64,000 nucleotides of DNA from Polytrichum commune (lineage: Eukaryota > Streptophyta > Polytrichopsida > Polytrichales > Polytrichaceae). The position numbers and the translations under genes were made by a program. Shown in pieces: positions 644 through 10,208 of this stretch (the stretch's first letter is position 1; each line of letters starts with the position of its first letter). The notes beneath the pieces were generated by a model that was given only the letters and a program-made list of their open reading frames with translations, was not told the DNA's origin and did no database searches. The stretch spans positions 34,192,440 to 34,256,439 of the forward strand of contig OX485807.1 in NCBI GenBank assembly GCA_950295325.1. Direction: 5' to 3'.

Positions 644-1909
644 GTGAGTTTGGTACATGTAGATGAGACTCAACAGGAGAGGGCTATCTTGGAGGCTTCT
701 AAGTTAGAGGAACCTTTACATTTTAGGAGAGGGAAGGCCCCATTAGAGGTAGGAGTACAGGGTCAAGAGGAGTATTCTTCGGATGAGGCTCCTAATCTTT
801 CCGAATTGGATAAGGTAGCTAGAGTAGCTAGAAGGGCCACTAGAGAGTTGGAGAGGGAGAATGTAATTCTTCATGATAGAGAGAGGCCTAATGTCATTCA
901 TGATTTGGAAGATAGTGAGATGGGAGAATTGGAAGGACCGGAAATTCCTTTGGATGAGTTTGATGGTGTTGGCAATGCCAAAGTGAAGAAGTCGAGTCGC
1001 TACGATTTATGGGCCGATCTTAGCTCACTTAAGGCCTATATTACCTTCGGACAATTGTTGGAGATTTCACCCGTAGTTAGGAAGACTCTCAAGGAAGGAA
1101 TGTCAGTGACTAGGAGAACTAGGAAGGTTAAGCCTAGGATGGTGGCTATAGTTCAAATGCAAGGAGGAATACGAGATATCAAACCAATTGAAATTGAGGT
1201 TTTGGTGGTCGACAAGATGATTCTTAATGTGCTAGTGGATGGAGGTAGCGGACTAAACATCTTGCCGGAGCATACCATGAAGAGGTTGGGACTTAGTCTT
1301 ACGGGTTCATCACCTTTCATCATCAATATGACGAATCAAAGTCCGGCCGTGCCTTTGGGGATGATTAAGGATTGTAGGATTAGCACTGGAGGGGAAAAAT
1401 ATGTGGTCACCTTTCATATCATCAAAATGCATTCTAATAAGGATGCATTTCTCATCTTGTTAGATAGGCCATTGTTGAGAATGGCGGATGCCATAGTGGA
1501 TTGGGTAGGAGTCAAGCCATCCATTACTTATGGTCCGGAGGACAATAGGGTCAAAGTTCCCATAGGGTCGCTAGGTGGTTGGATTAGACAAGAGATTGTT
1601 TCATCTTCGGAAGATGAACGTGATGCCAAGGAGGATGGCAATAATGATGAGGCATTGATAGGAGTAGTTCATTCGGGTGGTCTAGGTCATAGTTTCTATA
1701 ATTATGGGGATGATAGGGAGTATGCCCAATGGTTGAGAGATTATCAGGAGTTCGAATTCGATGTTATGACCACGTCCCATCATGCATGTTTGAGGGATGA
1801 CATTGTTAGTTCAAGGAACGAGAAATATTCCTTGTTAGAACCATATGAGGTGCTCACCGAGGAAGAGTGGATTTTAGGGGAATTAACACTTTGGGTTGAT
1901 AGTATGTAA
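644..1909 (+). pseudogene. Ty3/gypsy-like gag-pol fragment with aspartic protease, copy 2
   Basis: The frame encodes 421 residues. Residues 1-130 are charged and gag-like. Residues about 170-320 form a retropepsin-like aspartic protease: the active-site loop reads VLVDGGSGLNIL, the DGGS form seen in plant retroelements, and the flap and C-terminal strands end in LLDRPLLRMADAIVDW. The tail ends LTEEEW, as in copy 1. The first codon used is an in-frame Met only if GTG/TTG is excluded; the frame is actually continuous with copy 1 apart from stop codons, so a separate start is doubtful. The protease would process a gag-pol polyprotein. No RT, RNase H or integrase follows, so the element is degraded. 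Confidence 0.65.
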
Positions 1910-2149
1910 GAGAGTGACGTAAGTTTAGTACATGTAGATAGGACTCAAGATTATGATGCTATCATAGAAATGGAGAAGTTGGAGGAGCCTTTACACTTCG
2001 AGACGACATCAACGGAAATTATGGTTGGACAAGATTTCAGGGGTTATCTTCATGTACCAATGGATTGGTATGAACCCGAAAATGAGCAAGTTTGTATACC
2101 CGAGGGAGATTGGTATTATGTAAATGTTCCAATTCAAATCGGACATTGA
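1910..2149 (+). pseudogene. third partial module of the same polyprotein
   Basis: Directly after the TAA that ends copy 2, the same frame continues as SDVSLVHVDRTQ then LEEPLHF, matching the start of copy 2 (SLVHVDETQ then LEEPLHF). It diverges after about 35 residues and ends at TGA. This shows that the module unit begins at SLVHVD and that at least three unit starts or ends lie in this polyprotein. No function beyond relic retroelement is inferred. Confidence 0.5.
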
Positions 2150-2476
2150 AAGCTAGCGTGGGCATCTCGCGATCCACATAAATGTTGGGGTGAAATGTGA
2201 AGACTATGGATGAAAGACGGAATTAGAGTTTAATTGGGTTACCAACAATGTGACATCGAGACGTCCAAGGATGAAGAAGACGACCAATGTGTTACTAGTT
2301 CCGAGAAAATGTTGCCTAGACATCGATCTAGTTTGCAATGGACACTCTTAAGGATGCAATGAGTTCGCATCTTGTCGGAGGTCAATCATGGAAGAGGGTT
2401 AACCGAATTCGAGTTTGAAGACAACTTACCTTTGAAGCAAGAAATTTGGGATCTATCCCCCGATAGTCGCCAATAA
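2150..2476. other. non-coding tail of the retroelement
   Basis: No open frame of note. It lies between the last polyprotein remnant and the LTR-like start and is probably decayed coding or 3' untranslated sequence of the element. Confidence 0.3.
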
Positions 2477-3640
2477 TGTGAGCCCAAAATGGTGCTCACA
2501 TGTGTTCTTAACTCTTCGAAACCATTAGAAGTTATGTTTTCATGTTTTATGATTATTCACAAAAATATAAAAAGAGTGAAGTTTGAAGGAAGTTATGTTT
2601 AAGCATTAGGCTTGTGTGGAGTGGATTGATTAGAAGATTAGTAGTGTGAGGAAGCTCCTTAGTTGGGAACGTAGTAGATAAAGAACCAAGGGTAGTTCCT
2701 TGAGTTAAAAGTTTGAATTAGGATCTAGGTTGTTCGTTTGAGGGACAAAGGCTTAGAAGATAAGATGAGAGCCTACAAAGTAGGGGAGGATTACGAAGGC
2801 TTATCTTGAGGGTGCTCACCTACTCCCTCTCAACTTACTATATAAGCCCTCATTCTTCCCTCTCTCTTCCTCTTTCTTTCATGCTCCTTGACACCTCACG
2901 TGTTATAAGTGTGGGTATGTAGGAAGCAAGATAGGAGCACATGTGTATGCATGGTTTTAGGGTGAAGAGCTAAGACTAGTTAGCCTTGAGGTGGCTTGAC
3001 TTCTTGTTAGGAGTAGCTTGGGTTGGAAGAATTTAGAGTGTGACTTATAGTCTTCAAATTGTAGTACTTGGATTCATGATATCCATACTTATAATTATTT
3101 AGACTTACAAGGTTATGTTTGTGAAACATTGGAGCATTTAGTTTTGTTGGACTAACAAAGTTACATTATTGAAGTAGGTGAGCTTGTGTGTGTGTGGAGT
3201 AAGAGAGAGGCACGTAGGTATGCGAAGTTATAAGGTGAAGAGTCAAGATCAATTAGTCTTGAAGATTAGCCTTACATTATTAGATGTGGTTTAGACTCAA
3301 GGCATTCATGAACAAGTGCCTAGCTCTAGCATCTAGATTTTTAGTAGTGGAATTATAGTATTTGGATTTATAGTATTCACTCTTATAGTTCTTAGACTTA
3401 TGATGTTTAGACTTAAAGTGTTGGGATCATTAGGTAGGAAGGGGTGTGTGTAACTTTTGAATGTATTGGTGATTGACCATTGAGGTAAGTATTTTTAAAC
3501 ACTCGCACTCTTTTGGTTGAAATAAATCAAGTGCACAATCAATGGAGAGGGTGGAGGACCCCCTAATGAAAGATGGTGAGACAAAGGAGGCTAGGACAAC
3601 GGGTGCAAGGGGGTAATTACGTGTTAGTCCAAAATTCCGC
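2477..3640 (+). repeat. LTR-like region with TATA box
   Basis: It starts TGTGAGCCCAAAATGGTGC, an LTR-like TG end with a self-complementary start. A related start, TGTGAGCCCAATATCGTGCC, occurs on the minus strand at 14509, followed by similar downstream blocks (CTTAA, CATTA, AAAAAGAGTGA). A TATA box is at 2839-2846. Inside is a degenerate duplication, about 2930-3130 against 3215-3425. The right boundary was not found, and the end given is approximate. Position right after the polyprotein fits a 3' LTR. Confidence 0.4.
2839..2846 (+). promoter_or_regulatory. TATA box of the LTR-like region
   Basis: TATATAAG followed 30-40 bases later by a pyrimidine-rich stretch, a usual arrangement for an LTR promoter. 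Activity is not shown. Confidence 0.35.
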
Positions 3641-4300
3641 ACTCGGACTAGGACGAAATCAAGGGTGAGGATTGCGGACTGGCAGAATGTGATTTCAGAT
3701 TATGTTTTGATGAGGATTTATTATGAGAATACTGAGGACGAGATGCGCAATTTTCGAGACGACGTTGTCGAATGCTGCCGAATTAATAAACCCACGTGTA
3801 ATTGCCATTTGTTAGCACGAAACAAGATAAATGTGCCAATATCAGCATTGTCCGATAATTTGTATGCTCTAGGTTCTATTTTTCCGGGTTGCCTGGCGAC
3901 CAACGGGCCCAATGGGCAGCCCGAGGATAAAAAAAAACTCCTCCTTCCATCTTCTTTCCTTTCTGCGGCAAATTATTGTCCAGGCTGCCCGAAGACCATC
4001 GGACCGGGAGGGGCAGCCCGTGAAATAAATGTAATTTTAACCTTTCCCCCATTTTTGATTTTTTACCTACTTCTTTGTTCGTTATTGTGAACTTTACCTT
4101 CACAACTCTTGAATGGTTTAACATCGTTTGGAAGTGCATTCTTACTTTAGTTATTTTTCAATCAAAGTTACCTTGCAAGGGTTAATCAAGTTTGTAAGTG
4201 CATTCTTCTCCCCTTCCATTGCTAGTGATTTTTTTGATGCATGCATGTCTACATGAAGTATTGGGCCCACACCCTGGCCACCGCCGCTTGAAGCTGCTCC
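3641..4300. other. unassigned stretch left of the CACTA element
   Basis: Contains short open frames only. GC-rich GGGCAGCCCG-type segments at about 3905-3925 and 3990-4020 look like a degenerate inverted repeat. The left end of the CACTA element should lie near or inside this stretch, but no CACTA terminus was found. Confidence 0.3.
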
Positions 4301-4369
4301 TGGCACGCCACTGCACGCATGCACGGTCCAAGGATTCTGTTGAATGCTCGAATCTAGGGTTTTGGGTTT

Positions 4370-4545
4370 TTATGACTATATGTAGTCATCCTTGCACAAT
4401 GACGGTGACTACTTGTAGTCATACTTCTTGCACACTGCGAATGAGTAATATTAGTCAAAGAGCAACGGTGTCGTGTGGACACATTTTTTTGGGCCCCATG
4501 TTCATGACTTTTTGTAGTCATATATGCTTCATTCAGCACCAACAC
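4370..4545. repeat. left subterminal TAGTCAT motif cluster
   Basis: TGTAGTCAT occurs in direct orientation at about 4380, 4413 and 4514, with GTGACTAC-type inverse relatives between. Similar motifs recur at 7470 and at 9960-10190. In CACTA elements, subterminal repeats bind the element's own protein; that role here is inferred. Confidence 0.45.
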
Positions 4546-4585
4546 TCCTCACAAATGCCCTTGACAATTTCACAGAAGGTTGGAA

Positions 4586-4790
4586 ATGGATCCGGAATCA
4601 CAACAGACTTTGTTGCAGTTGCAACTGTGGGACATGGAGGAAAAGGAGGCAGATAGGCGACATCTCACAAGTTATGCATGCTCATGCAAGAAATGCATGG
4701 GAGCAAAAATGTAGTCACAGAAACCATCCGTAAACATCTTCGACAATACCAACGGGACCCGGAATTCAAGAAATCAATCTTGGTATGTCG
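4586..4790 (+). pseudogene. CACTA transposase N-terminal CxxC module
   Basis: An ATG at 4586 opens a frame with a glutamine-rich start and then YACSCKKCMGAK, a C-x-C-x2-C cluster. One base further along, the next frame continues NVVTETIRKHLRQYQRDPEF, so a single-base frameshift lies at about 4711. The two halves together match the N-terminal block that precedes Transposase_21 in many plant CACTA proteins, as I recall that family. It would help in DNA binding. It is broken by the frameshift and lies 270 bases before the SET block. Confidence 0.45.
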
Positions 4791-5053
4791 GGTGGACATC
4801 AATTATTGTATTTTTGTCTTTTGATAAAGTCGTGTGTTCGCAGAATGGTACTGAATAGCTTACGATGTTGCCCCCAAACATGTAGGAAACGAGGAGACCC
4901 TATGTGCAGGCCGCAACAACTGCTGCCCTGCACTCTCTAATGTTTAGTAATCCACCATTCCCCCCAAAAAGCAAATTTGGTTCACATGGGGACCAACAAA
5001 TGCTGATGCAGACTTTTGGCCCGGATAGATTCCATGGACAGTGGGACCCATGA

Positions 5054-5475
5054 CCAGTTCCGAAGCTCACTCCGTTTACATATTGGAATAGGAAGTGGGA
5101 GGTCAAAGTATCAACACATGCATTCATGGGATGGGGTCTATTTGCATTGGAAGTGGCAAAGGTTGGGGATGAATTATTGTCATTTGTGGGGCAATGGTTT
5201 TCTAAAACGGAGTTCAAAAGCATGTGTAATGCAAACCCACAATTCATAAAATATGCACTATGGCTGAAGAAAAATATTTATCAAGATGGGAATGTCTTGA
5301 ATAGAAACATTGCTGGATACATTAATAATTCTATTGGGAGGGAAGAGGAGGCTAATGTGCAGTGGGACTATGTGTCATTGTTGGCACTGTGGAACCCCAA
5401 AGTTTGGAGATATGCCATGACCGTGGCAACAAGACGGAAGGAGACGAGTTATTCACGTATTACCCATTGAATTGA
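5054..5475 (+). pseudogene. SET domain embedded in the CACTA element
   Basis: The frame open from 5054 reads KVSTHAFMGWGLFALEVAKV then GDELLSFVGQW, the N-terminal SET motif (GxG-type SAM loop as GWG, then a glycine-rich strand). About 60 residues on comes NIAGYINNSIG, in the place of the canonical NHS motif of the SAM and catalytic pocket. Near the end, one base is missing at about 5429; in the shifted frame KTEGDELFTYYPLN follows, which matches the GxELxxDY C-terminal SET motif. SET proteins transfer methyl groups from SAM to lysines. Cysteines of a post-SET domain are absent. The degenerate NHS motif and frameshift make activity doubtful. The domain call rests on three motifs in the right order and spacing. 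Confidence 0.6.
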
Positions 5476-5590
5476 ATGCCAATGGTGCTTAACATTGTGG
5501 CACGGAGGCATTGCTTCATCTCATATAATTTAGTGAGAGGGTAGCACATACAGACTGTTCGTGTGGGAAACCCAGATGAAAACCACGTTT

Positions 5591-5860
5591 GTAGTCATTG
5601 CTTTGGACTTTATGACTGCAATTACAAAATGTAGGCATTGTTTTGGACTTCATGACTGCAATTACAAAATGTAGGCATTGTTTTGGACTTCATGACTGCA
5701 ATTACAAAATGTAGGCATTGTTTTGGACTTCATGACTGCAATTACAAAATGTAGTCATTGTTAAGGACTTCATGACTGTAATTACAAAATGTAGTCATTG
5801 TTAAGGACTTCATGACTGCAATCACAAAATATGGTCATTGTTTTGGACTCCATGACTGTG
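5591..5860 (+). repeat. 40-bp tandem repeat, about 6.75 copies
   Basis: The unit contains GTAGTCATTG or GTAGGCATTG, TTTTGGACTT and CATGACTGCAATTACAAAAT. Copies are very similar, suggesting recent expansion. It lies between the SET block and the transposase and carries the same TAGTCAT motif as the element's flanks. Confidence 0.85.
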
Positions 5861-5888
5861 GAGGTGATCATATATACTAACATAAACC

Positions 5889-6903
5889 GTGCAATGTGGA
5901 TTTGTCTTGTCATGCTTGAAGTCTGAAAGTGTGTCCGAATGCGAAGAAGAATGCGAAGACGATGTTCGTCGCAGGCGGTCGAGGGAGGATCCACAGTGTA
6001 CTGGAAGCGAAGACGAAGATTTTGAAGTGTTGAGAATGATAACAGAGTGTCTTGTGAGGTATAACAACAACAACTCTACGGGATGTAATGTTGGATTCGA
6101 CGATGACGTAGATGCCCATGTCGTAGATACGGATGAGTGTGGGGAGGAAGACCTTGCGAACGTACTGCATGAATCGAATATTCCTTTGTACGAGGGTGCT
6201 CGGACAACACGTCTAGTGGTAGTGTTGCTTCTATTGAATTGTTTCACGGTTTTTGGAGTTTCGAATGCATGTGCAGATGAGATTTTAAAGCTAGTCAGCG
6301 AACTTCTTCCAGCCGGAAATAATCTACCAAAGTCGCACTACGAAGGGAAGAAGTTATTGAGATTGTTGGGCCTTTCGTATGACTATCCATGCTTGCAGAA
6401 ACGGATGTTGTCTCTTCCGCAAACAATTGGCAGATGCATTGAACTGTCCAAAATGCGGACAAATGCGGTACACATCGGAGAACAACAAAAGGCCTGCAAA
6501 GGTCCTAAGGCACTTTCCATTGATACCCCACTTGAAGCGCATGTTTCGTTGTGCCCGCCTTGGACATTTGAACAAATGGCACATAACAAAAAAAGGTTTG
6601 CAAGGGAATATTGAGTGCGTTCCGGACTCGAAAGCATGGAAACACATAGATGCTATGTATCCTGAGTTTGCATCCTCCGATAGAAATATACGACTAGGAA
6701 TGGCCCTAGATGGTGTGAACCCATTCTCCAACCAGTCATTGAGCCACCCTACTTGGCCGGTTGTGCTTTTGAATTACAACTTGCCGCCGTGGTTGATCAC
6801 CAAGCGATTTTTCCTTATGTTGGTGCTCATAATTCCTGGAAAAGAGAGTGTGACATCAGAAAACATAGATGTGTATTTGGCGCCCCTTATTGAGGAGTTG
6901 TAG
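5889..6903 (+). pseudogene. CACTA transposase, Transposase_21 (Tnp2) N-terminal half
   Basis: After an acidic start, the frame reads IPLYEGARTTRL, then VSELLPAGNNLPKSHYEGKK, a signature of plant Tnp2 proteins. At about 6378 the frame shifts by one: the next frame, from 6379, continues MTIHACRNGCCLFRKQLADA with CPKCGQMRY (a zinc-knuckle-like pair), then FPLIPHLKRMFRCARLGHLN, KAWKHIDAMYPEFA and RNIRLGMALDGVNPFSNQS, the strongly conserved core with the first catalytic Asp region (ALDGVNPF). A TAG stops it at 6901-6903. The enzyme would cut and rejoin the element's ends. It is a pseudogene because of the frameshift and stops. Confidence 0.8.
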
Positions 6904-7445
6904 GAGTTGTAGGGTGGTATCCATGCGGTTGATGTTTCTGATGAAAATTAAAACTGCGATTTCATCCTTAAGGCCATTTTGATGTGGTGCATTCATGATT
7001 CCCCGCATATGGTCTTGTCTCTGGATAGGTGACAAAGGGATATAGAGGATGCACGGAATGCGGTCCCAATGTTTCCACACGCCAATCTGCAGTGCTTGGG
7101 AAAAATCTATATTTGGGACATCGGAGGTACTTGAGCCGAAGTCACCCATATCGACGCATGCGGGCGTCTTTTGATAGCAGAGAAGAAAGGCGAGCACCAC
7201 CCTGCCCTTTAACCAGGTGGGACATAATGCGGCATGCCCATGCAAGGGAGAGGTGGTTGAATGCCTCAAAGGACAACAAACCAGGAGGAGACAATGATCC
7301 AGTGTACCAAACAATAGTGAAGAGGTTATCAGCCTTGTACAGTCTCCCGTATTGGCAGGTCAGTGTGTGGCACTCCATGCACCAGTCATGCAGTGCATTG
7401 AAGCAACTAACATTTGTAATTAGTGGACGTGTTTGTGATGATTAA
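6904..7445 (+). pseudogene. Transposase_21, middle part, with stops
   Basis: Directly after the stop at 6903, the same type of protein continues with further stops: GGIHAVDVSDEN, then an LSLDR block, then from about 7029 KGYRGCTECGPNVSTRQSA, LGKNLYLGHRRYLSRSHPYR and NDPVYQTIVKRLSALYSLPYW. These are conserved in CACTA transposases, including the HRR(Y/F)L block. The segment that normally holds the DxxH-type catalytic motif after LPYW reads WHSMHQS and is degenerate. The region up to the next block, about 200 bases, has no good match. Confidence 0.7.
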
Positions 7446-7645
7446 ATGTATGTATGATGACTGTAAGTAGTCATCATCTTTAAAATTATGCCCAAACAAA
7501 CATATACAATGTGTGGAATTGAAAAGTGATGACTAATCTACCGAGGTGTTGGGAATGGTGGCAGTATCTTTTGGTTTGGCATGTTCTGGATCCCATGCAT
7601 TGCGAAAAAAACTTGTGCGAGAATATCATGAAGACAATCTGAGGC

Positions 7646-8464
7646 TTGAAAGATACACTGAAAGTGCGATTGGATATGAAGGAAGCAAACATAAGGCCGG
7701 AGCTTCATCCAGTGGACGATGGTGGGAATGGCATGACGGTCTTGCCAGCTACTCCGTACGTGCTGTCCAAGTCAGAGAAGATAGTCTTCCTAAAGATTAT
7801 TCGCGAGCTCAAGACTCCGAGCAATTACGCTGGGCAATTGTCAAAGAAAATCACAGTGGATGGGCAGTTGCGGGGTCTCAAATCGCATGACTACCACATT
7901 TTGATGCAACAAATTCTTCCTTTATGTTTGCGAACACTATTACCTAAGGAAGTTCGAGTGGCAATCATACGAATGAGCAGGGTCTTTGCACGCATTTGCG
8001 CAAAGTCTCTAGATCCGTCAACAATGACAGACCTAATGGAGGAAACTGCGACGACCATGTGCATGTTGGAGAAAGTTTTCCCACCGTCATTCTTTGATGT
8101 GATGTCTCATTTGCCAATTCACTTAGTGCAACAGTTGATCATTTGTGGGCCAGTCCACACACGATGGATGTACCCTGTGGAACGGTATTTGAAGACATTG
8201 AAGGGTTACGTATGCCAACGCGCACAGCCTGAGGGCTCCATGGCAAGAGGCTGTATGGAGGAGGCGATTGGATATTGCACAGAGTACATGCAAAATTGTA
8301 GTGTGACAGCTCGTCGTGTATGGGACGACACTGAAGAGCCTAGTATGAATGAAGAACTTTTAGAAGGCAAAGGGAGACGACGTGTATTGACAGCATACTT
8401 GCAACACTGGATTCATGAGTTTGTCATAAACAACGCCGAAATACTAGAAGACTACAGGGAGTAA
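7646..8464 (+). pseudogene. DUF4218 part of CACTA transposase
   Basis: An open frame of 272 residues with RLDMKEANIRPELHP, FLKIIRELKTPSNYAGQLSK, GLKSHDYHILMQQILPLCLR, FPPSFFDVMSHLPIHLVQQL and WMYPVERYLKTLKGYV in order. This is the C-terminal DUF4218 region of plant Tnp2-type transposases and the longest intact piece of the element. The first Met is internal to the family and is not a real start. It is followed after 40 bases by a 44-bp repeat array and then by DUF4216, where homologues would continue or splice. Confidence 0.85.
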
Positions 8465-8505
8465 GCACACGAACTCCTTTTACGTTTCATAGCAACAACA
8501 TCGAA

Positions 8506-8728
8506 GAGAAACACTGTGTGTAGTCGCATATTTGGAGAAGATGACAAGAGAGAAACATTGTGTGTAGTCGCATATTTGGAGACGATGACTAGAGAGAAAC
8601 ACTGTGTGTAGTCGCATATTTGGAGAAGATGACTAGAGAGAAACACTGTGTGTAGTTGCATATTTGGAGAAGATGACTAGAGAGAAATTCACTGTGTGTA
8701 GTTGCATATTTGGAGAAGATGACTAGCT
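8506..8728 (+). repeat. 44-bp tandem repeat, about 5 copies
   Basis: The unit holds GAGAAACACTGTGTGTAGTC and GCATATTTGGAGAAGATGAC. Starts are at 8506, 8550, 8594, 8638 and 8682. TGTAGTCGCAT resembles the TAGTCAT motif of the rest of the element. The array separates the DUF4218 and DUF4216 blocks. Confidence 0.85.
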
Positions 8729-8756
8729 ATGTTTTGCAAGATGTAGTGAGAATGTA

Positions 8757-9599
8757 ATGAGAGGAAGAGAGGTGGGAACTGTGCGACTAAGCAAAGGTAA
8801 TCTGGGACACTGCAGGAGGTACGGAAATGATATGAGGAGAAGAGAGCAGGCCAGACGTGCAGAGTGCGGAAGCGGTACTCGACATTTAATGCTAATGGAA
8901 TGGCTCCCTAGTGTAGTGGACGATGACATCGCGAGGGGGGATGTTGTATCGGATGATGTGCGAGCACTCTTACTGCCACCCTCTAGAGATGCAAAAGGGT
9001 ACAGGTCGATGTATGCGTATGGAAATCATATAAGAGTACGTGGAGCTGAAGCGGATTTGTCTACTTGTGACAGTGGTGTCGCCGCCACGTTTTTGCAGTC
9101 ATGTCGCTCTAGCAGTAGCGACAAGAACATGAGGACAACTAATCTGGAATATGTTAGGTGGGTGGAGGAGATAATAAGCGTGGACTATGGTAAATTTGAG
9201 GTTGTTGTGTTGTATTGCACATGGGCACGAGCAAATAGGAGTGGTGCCCGCGCCACAATGAAGAGCGATGAATATGGTTTCACACTCTTCAAATTTGATC
9301 GCTTGATTCCTTATTCAGCATATTCATTTGCATTTCCCCTTCATGTGTAACAAGTTTTTTTTGTGGATGATGGGGGGAATGATGGATGGAAAATTGTTTT
9401 GCGGAGAGAGCCACGAAGTTGTAGAGTCCCTTCAAAGGTGGATGGAGGACCAGATTTGCAGGCATTGCAAATAGGTAGAAGCACGGAACACCACGGCCTT
9501 GGGGACCTCTTCAGTGACATTGACCGTGCACATGACACCCATGTGTTGGCGGGATTAGAGATTCTAACTCCGGAGGATGTTATATTAGCATCGCATTGA
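8757..9599 (+). pseudogene. DUF4216 part of the CACTA protein
   Basis: The frame 8757-9350 contains YAYGNHIRVRGAEA, STCDSGVAATF, WVEEIISVDYGKFEVVVLYC and DEYGFTLFKF, in the order known for DUF4216 proteins that follow DUF4218 in CACTA elements. After a TAA at 9348-9350 a shifted frame continues FVDDGGNDGWKIVLRREPRS, the usual end of the domain, and runs on to 9599. So at least one stop or frameshift splits it. The biochemical role of DUF4216 is not known to me. Confidence 0.7.
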
Positions 9600-10200
9600 A
9601 GGTCGTGCATGAGGATCCACATTGTGAAGACAATGTTGGCGAACACTAGGAAGGGAGGTCGCATGGCAAAGACAAATGCTATGTGCATGTATCGATCTAT
9701 ATGTACTATATAGACTATGTATGTGCATTTTTTTCAAATAATAAATAAAGTATGATGTTGTGTAAAATTAATAGGACGTGTGAGCAATGCAAATGAATTA
9801 AATTATGCTTATACTACAATGAATGCACCTAAAAGTAACGTAAATGTCCTTGGCAATAGACAATTTGGTCAACCACATAATACCGGGGACTCCCTACACG
9901 TACAAGCGTGAAAGAAATGTAAATGCATCCCAACAAGCACTCTCTATTGGGATCTGGAAACCATAGTCATATGGGTATCAATTTTAGTCACATGGACCGT
10001 TATGAAAATGTAAAATATGGGGACAAAATGTTCCCAACACGTTCTCTGCAGAGTTCCCGGCAAAACTTGTCCAATCTCAATAAAACCTTAGTCATATGAT
10101 GACTAACGTGTGTTCAGTCATCACTTTGGTTCAATATGACTTCCCTGCAACCAATAGTCATATCCGGTCATATGGCCCTAGTCAATTTTTCGTGCTCTCC
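9600..10200. repeat. right subterminal region of the CACTA element
   Basis: AT-rich, no gene. From about 9960 the motifs TAGTCATATG, AGTCATATGATGACT and TAGTCATATCCGGTCATATG repeat in both orientations up to the terminus. They parallel the motifs at 4370-4545. Confidence 0.5.
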
Positions 10201-10208
10201 TTGTAGTG
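10201..10208 (-). repeat. CACTA right terminal inverted repeat
   Basis: TTGTAGTG here is CACTACAA on the minus strand, the diagnostic end of the superfamily. The three bases after it are CTG; the left partner for a 3-bp target duplication was not found. Confidence 0.55.

Follow-up and report, generated by a model that had tools for sequence, protein, structure and literature searches.

The window, a stretch of 64,000 nucleotides from the moss Polytrichum commune, contains a decayed copy of a CACTA/EnSpm transposon in which a SET-like stretch lies ahead of the Transposase_21 and DUF4218 parts of the transposase gene (Table 1). This copy is dead: its exon 1 is frameshifted, the SET exon, as read from the sequence, is broken by an in-frame stop (5051-5053) as well as by a change of frame near 5428, and several frames share the transposase. 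The initial annotation had placed three SET motifs, GWGLFA, NIAGYINNS and GDELFTYYPLN, in this order at 5054-5475, and the order was borne out on the plus strand, with the last motif in a different frame. The missing base reported near 5429 is borne out by comparison with the relative L012, in which the part preceding GDELF is longer by about 7 bases, so that the window copy is one base short modulo 3. The location on the transposase strand was likewise correct, since Transposase_21 and DUF4218 follow downstream on that strand. The proposed place between a CxxC module and Transposase_21 was confirmed as a position, but in the copies inspected the SET frame does not continue into Transposase_21.

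Table 1. Parts of the transposon copy in the window
Feature	Position	Strand	Remarks
Exon 1 of the transposase gene (CxxC/HL module, Transpos_assoc-like)	4586..4782	+	Frameshifted; donor TTG/GTATGT; read from the sequence
Putative SET cassette exon, decayed copy	4886..5475	+	Acceptor ATGTAG directly before 4886; terminal TGA at 5473-5475
SET frame, longest stretch without a stop (138 codons)	5054..5467	+	Contains GWGLFA and the I-N-N-S motif
Transposase exon, first part	5886..6900	+	N-terminal half of Transposase_21, in two frames; PF02992 6.2e-35
Transposase_21, C-terminal part	7029..7442	+	Other frame; PF02992 3.4e-14
DUF4218 part of the transposase	7643..8461	+	PF13960 9.7e-36
Equivalent of the ORF that encodes DUF4216 in other copies	8727..9347	+	Judged from its location and from likeness by eye
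3' terminal inverted repeat, CACTACAAGGAGAGC...	10178..10208	-	3' end of the window element at 10208

The ORF in the position of DUF4216 had no match in a Pfam search of the window copy. A search of the window that tolerated up to 3 mismatches found no 5' counterpart of the terminal repeat; if the 5' end is about 10 kb from the SET, as in the subfamily termed B below, it lies outside the window. Short tandem repeats of the GTAGTCAT / GACTGCAATTACAAAATG type occupy intronic or intergenic element parts at 5590-5870 and 8480-8740, and an ORF at 620-1909 was labelled by eye as that of a Ty3-type retrotransposon.

The copies sampled from the genome fall into four subfamilies, A to D, with the window copy in D. 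These elements are CACTA/EnSpm transposons by their ends, target duplications and Transposase_21, in agreement with the initial annotation. In subfamily B, 29 bases are common to both ends (CACTACAACAGATTGGGTATTTTGTGACT), and a 32-base pattern of this end, with up to 3 mismatches, was matched 98 times, as compared to 0 for the reversed-pattern control. Paired B ends enclose mostly some 14-17 kb, and in some cases more, with the SET inside, as illustrated by the element at C2:43574017-43589514 (SET at 43584079), which carries exon 1, SET, Transposase_21, DUF4218 and DUF4216 in this order on one strand. No 5' end was found within 2.5-7 kb upstream of the SET, as the end is farther away, about 10 kb in B. 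Paired CACTAC ends were also present in subfamilies A and D, again with reversed-pattern controls of 0; the ends covered are those of A, B and D and, for the window copy, the 3' end only. Target duplications of 3 bp were seen in 17 of 18 elements (9 of 10 in B, 8 of 8 in A and D), a count that leaves out L042, which has a left flank without a right partner; the lone exception is the B element at C7:27133613. The transposase matches PF02992, which is of the CACTA type and not of the Harbinger (PIF-type) kind. Matches to the flanking domains were weaker: the exon 1 module of L011 gave E 3e-4 and 21.3 bits against Transpos_assoc (cut-off 27.7), and an ORF of the same locus just missed the DUF4216 cut-off (PF13952; E 1.5e-6, 29.1 bits; cut-off 30.6).

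Several further features of these elements were recorded. Exon 1 of L011 (2125-2322) also matches the Pfam U-box (23.1 bits, cut-off 21.4), possibly reflecting a RING-like zinc fold or chance. Four pairs of B-type ends about 7 kb apart and without a listed SET (C3:45035958-45043158, C3:48730502-48737563, C4:12776107-12783570 and C6:39029013-39036030) are probably non-autonomous derivatives. On the minus strand of the C2 element, a row of ORFs at 823-5420 takes up a large share of the 5' half, and one of these ORFs has a lysine-rich stretch; the row is possibly a TNPA-like second gene, and none of five of these ORFs had a significant Pfam match (best E 0.029). In subfamily A, an ORF upstream of exon 1 (L009, 969-1511; L010, 898-1440) resembles antisense large-subunit rDNA and is presumably TAR1-like; an Rfam search of the L009 ORF returned no match. 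At L013, the first part of a C-type transposase is succeeded by a Ty3-type ORF (by eye; 5752-9999, minus strand), by which the element appears to be interrupted.

The association of SET and transposase was followed across the genome from which the window derives (408 Mb in 64 contigs). Seven of these contigs, of 42-78 Mb, suggest n = 7, and psaB on contig C8 has its best matches in chains 6l35, 8htu and 7ksq (1702, 1702 and 1701 bits, ahead of 1665 and then 1628), which belong to photosystem I of the moss Physcomitrium. At least 150 stretches, fragments included, are related to the window SET frame (150 of 198 candidates were scored). The Pfam SET profile had 119 matches, of which 89 are at related stretches, 69 of these being stop-free; the remaining 30 are elsewhere, and the 13 pieces inspected read like ordinary host SET genes. 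Among the best-scoring 150 of 643 Transposase_21 candidates, 71 are preceded on their own strand by a listed SET match, with 1,282-3,177 bases between match starts (5-kb limit), and no listed pair within 5 kb showed another order or strand. Many copies with the SET between the same neighbours, whose absence would have refuted the initial annotation by its own terms, are thus present in this genome. The other 79 of these 150 matches, L054-L059 included, have no SET among the matches listed, and the SET therefore appears to be dispensable for some elements. A local SET profile applied to 4.5-5 kb of each of L054, L055 and L057 gave best E values of 0.54-0.75 in two and nothing in the third; for L056 and L058-L062, SET-lessness is read from match lists only, and further or diverged SET copies may remain in elements that seem to lack one. 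Relatives were also sought in viral contigs, where none of 26 pattern matches was confirmed.

The window SET stretch alone scored E 0.051 and 14.4 bits against PF00856 (cut-off 22.4 bits), and its assignment consequently depends on the relatives. In the proposed check against Pfam, the window frame thus stayed below the cut-off, but the family did match, and the refuting outcome of no SET hit did not occur. The members aligned were selected and mostly intact, from copies mostly picked as stop-free, which favours intact frames; 17 of these 18 reach E values of 0.01 or lower against the SET profile, down to 1e-11. When a profile of the 18 members was compared with solved structures, ASH1L (4e-6), an H3K4-specific enzyme (8e-6), SETD2 (2e-3) and EZH2 (4e-3) were retrieved, with the best matches spanning profile positions 80-150 only and not the C-terminal part; the profile matches include enzymes of the Set1 type. 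M-G-W-G-L of the GxG motif is invariant across the 18 rows. The NHS(C) motif departs from the canonical form: I-N is invariant and serine is present in at least 90%, histidine is replaced by Ser or Asn, and the next residue is I, T or A instead of C. Furthermore, F takes the place of Y in the YxG motif, and no cysteine post-SET follows, as the frame ends directly after the SET domain. L190 and Y194 of the C-terminal ELxxxY are conserved at 90% or more; owing to its frame change, the window copy does not have this motif within its open part. The claim of a methyltransferase-type SET domain accordingly stands as to the fold, which the profiles support, but activity is not to be assumed, given the replaced NHS histidine. 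PR-type SET enzymes (PRDM9-like) are active without this histidine, and together with the conserved motifs this precedent leads us to weight an active enzyme above a dead fold, without certainty.

As read from the sequence, the gene has the same arrangement in A, B, C and D: an intron (88-115 bases) separates exon 1 from the SET exon, and the transposase exon follows. Whole SET exons in relatives have 198-202 codons. All 8 relatives examined have a GT donor after exon 1. The acceptor before the SET frame is GTGTAG, or TTGTAG and similar in B, with a GTAG ending in 5 of 5. Exon 1 of B aligns to that of L009, L012, L013, L014 and L022 as well as to that of the SET-less L054 and L055, to which it is 60-62% identical; in these two, about 190 bases (L054) and about 560 (L055) separate exon 1 from the first in-frame CAG at which the transposase exon could begin, the interval that in A to D contains the SET exon. 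In A, B, C, D and E alike, possible CAG acceptors in the frame of exon 1 lie ahead of the transposase frame; only phase-0 CAG/TAG codons were looked for, so that the agreement in phase is not an independent test. In all 10 copies inspected, a stop occurs within 5 codons past the SET domain, and in diverged copies within a subfamily (E009/E022; window/L012) DNA similarity ends at this stop. By these features the SET resembles a cassette exon that is placed within intron 1 of the transposase gene and closed by a stop of its own. Because of this stop and the break of similarity at it, inclusion of the exon would give the zinc module plus SET, and skipping would give the transposase.

Selection was assessed by dN/dS ratios (Nei-Gojobori, ratio of sums, pairs of at least 90 codons); no ratio was obtained for 483 of the 820 SET pairs, in which dS was saturated. 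The pairs are interdependent, and most copies were selected for open frames; on this basis, the SET ratio was 1.07 at dS below 0.03 (37 pairs), 0.78 at 0.03-0.1 (70), 0.40 at 0.1-0.3 (43), 0.25 at 0.3-0.6 (13), 0.17 at 0.6-1.2 (28) and 0.21 above 1.2 (142, near saturation). The transposase gave 0.83 (9 pairs), 0.46 (20), 0.22 (3), 0.18 (5), 0.14 (5) and 0.08 (4) in the same bins, with L013 left out on account of the Ty3-like ORF after its first part. Such a fall with age would result from dead recent copies together with selected lineages. By Fisher test, silent changes were in excess in 6 of 7 hand-picked SET pairs (p 0.011 to 1.5e-17); the L046-L077 pair had a pN/pS of 1.10 (p 0.56). Judged by these ratios, the SET frame is under purifying selection over the period in which the four subfamilies diverged, which answers the question about dN/dS that the initial annotation had raised.

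The histories of the two parts also correspond. SET and transposase distances are correlated (r = 0.906; 190 pairs, 20 loci), and both trees contain the same four clades. In the transposase tree (29 rows, midpoint root, several forks weakly supported), the SET-bearing A to D form a group that excludes L060-L062, for which no SET is listed; the SET-less L054-L056 adjoin subfamily D of the window, L057 is within B, and L058 and L059 are within C. As rows without SET are beside and inside A to D, the exon seems ancestral to the four subfamilies and lost in places, with weak forks that formally permit independent gains.

These data suggest a model in which one promoter and exon 1, encoding a zinc-binding-like module, would serve two products. 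Skipping of the SET exon would yield an ordinary transposase, and its inclusion, with translation ending at its own stop, a protein of about 265 residues with zinc module and SET. This protein would bind either to DNA of the element itself or to the complex formed by the transposase, and it would methylate a lysine, most likely of a histone. The likelier result would be an active mark that counters host silencing, so that copies stay mobile; this direction is favoured since the nearest solved relatives are H3K36 and H3K4 enzymes, and it draws on weak profile similarity. That the selected SET exon is spliced into one of two products, and that the SET protein methylates lysine, likely as an active anti-silencing mark, is a reading of sequence to which we give modest preference, judging it somewhat more probable than its contrary. 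The ratios of 0.8-1.07 in young pairs and that of L046-L077 are such as dead copies would show and count against it. The more specific proposal of a CACTA lineage with an alternatively spliced, sequence-targeted histone methyltransferase that would mark its own copies against silencing is advanced tentatively, as a possibility that falls short of even likelihood.

Catalysis may have been lost, given the replaced NHS histidine and the absent post-SET cysteines. The SET fold would then have been retained for binding or dimerisation within a protein of the element, comparable to a TNPA-like accessory factor. The isoleucine, threonine or alanine after NHS and the phenylalanine of YxG are in line with this alternative; the invariant GxG motif and motif asparagine, the largely conserved final tyrosine and the existence of active PR-type enzymes speak against it, and we consider it unlikely while taking it seriously. 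Alternatively, an active SET protein may target the transposase or another element protein, or set a repressive mark that limits copy number, as a form of self-regulation. In its favour, exon 1 would be common to the SET product and the transposase, both of which would arise at one site, and the best of the host SET pieces compared (19.1 bits) looks to be of the E(z) type. The better solved matches are H3K4 and H3K36 enzymes, however, and we regard this alternative as rather improbable. The same comparison with 13 host SET pieces, several of them partial, gave no match strong enough to name a donor of the exon. Plant CACTA elements often contain captured host sequence, and a SET exon captured by the ancestral element could have been amplified as a passenger without function, as the many transposase matches without a listed SET might indicate; the ratios of 0.17-0.25 at moderate divergence, the significance of most chosen pairs and the co-divergence with the transposase make this very improbable. 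Chance resemblance of motifs or a mis-read frame, to which the score of the window copy on its own might point, is refuted by the Pfam SET matches of the relatives, including the 89 related places over the cut-off, and has a negligible probability.

The preferred reading, a selected SET exon spliced into a second product of the transposase gene, can be set against known systems. Plant TNP2 elements have the order Transpos_assoc, Transposase_21, DUF4218 and DUF4216. The moss elements resemble plant CACTA/EnSpm transposons with TNP2 in their CACTA ends, 3-bp duplications, Transposase_21 and DUF4218, and more weakly in Transpos_assoc and DUF4216; what sets them apart is an additional SET exon, which lies in the first intron and ends in a stop of its own. 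Another parallel is that of En/Spm, in which the two proteins TNPA and TNPD are made from one promoter by alternative splicing, as are the two products in the model presented here. However, to our knowledge TNPA is not a SET protein, and it differs in this respect from the predicted zinc-SET product of the moss.

The initial annotation knew of no described CACTA family with this arrangement, and a search of the open-access literature, which did not cover Repbase, likewise found no SET in CACTA/EnSpm elements. SET domains in transposons have already been reported for other superfamilies; within CACTA, none was found in the literature searched. A passage of PMC12730594 cites HarbingerS, a SET-encoding Harbinger clade, and SET-bearing MuDR families in Phytophthora (Kojima and Jurka, Repbase Reports 2014). 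Like the moss elements, these are DNA transposons with a SET methyltransferase gene, whereas their transposases are of other superfamilies and the host named is an oomycete; the likeness drawn from the citing passage concerns the presence of the gene. SETMAR (PMC6326780) is a primate gene that arose when one transposon inserted beside a SET gene; it combines SET and transposase sequence as the moss elements do, but it is a domesticated SET-mariner gene and not a multicopy mobile element. If the model is true, a cut-and-paste plant transposon encodes its own histone writer under long-term selection. As one genome has related elements with and without the SET exon, the consequences of the exon for chromatin and copy number can be tested directly. 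According to PMC12730594, fungal EnSpm transposons carry TET/JBP genes that have been proposed to help escape silencing and DNA methylation; these share with the moss elements the superfamily and an encoded epigenetic enzyme, which is, however, a DNA dioxygenase and not a SET protein, and their hosts are fungi. Element-encoded anti-silencing proteins have also been reported for plant VANDAL elements (PMC12730594), and a selected domain of the histone-methyltransferase type in a plant CACTA transposon would add another anti-silencing route.
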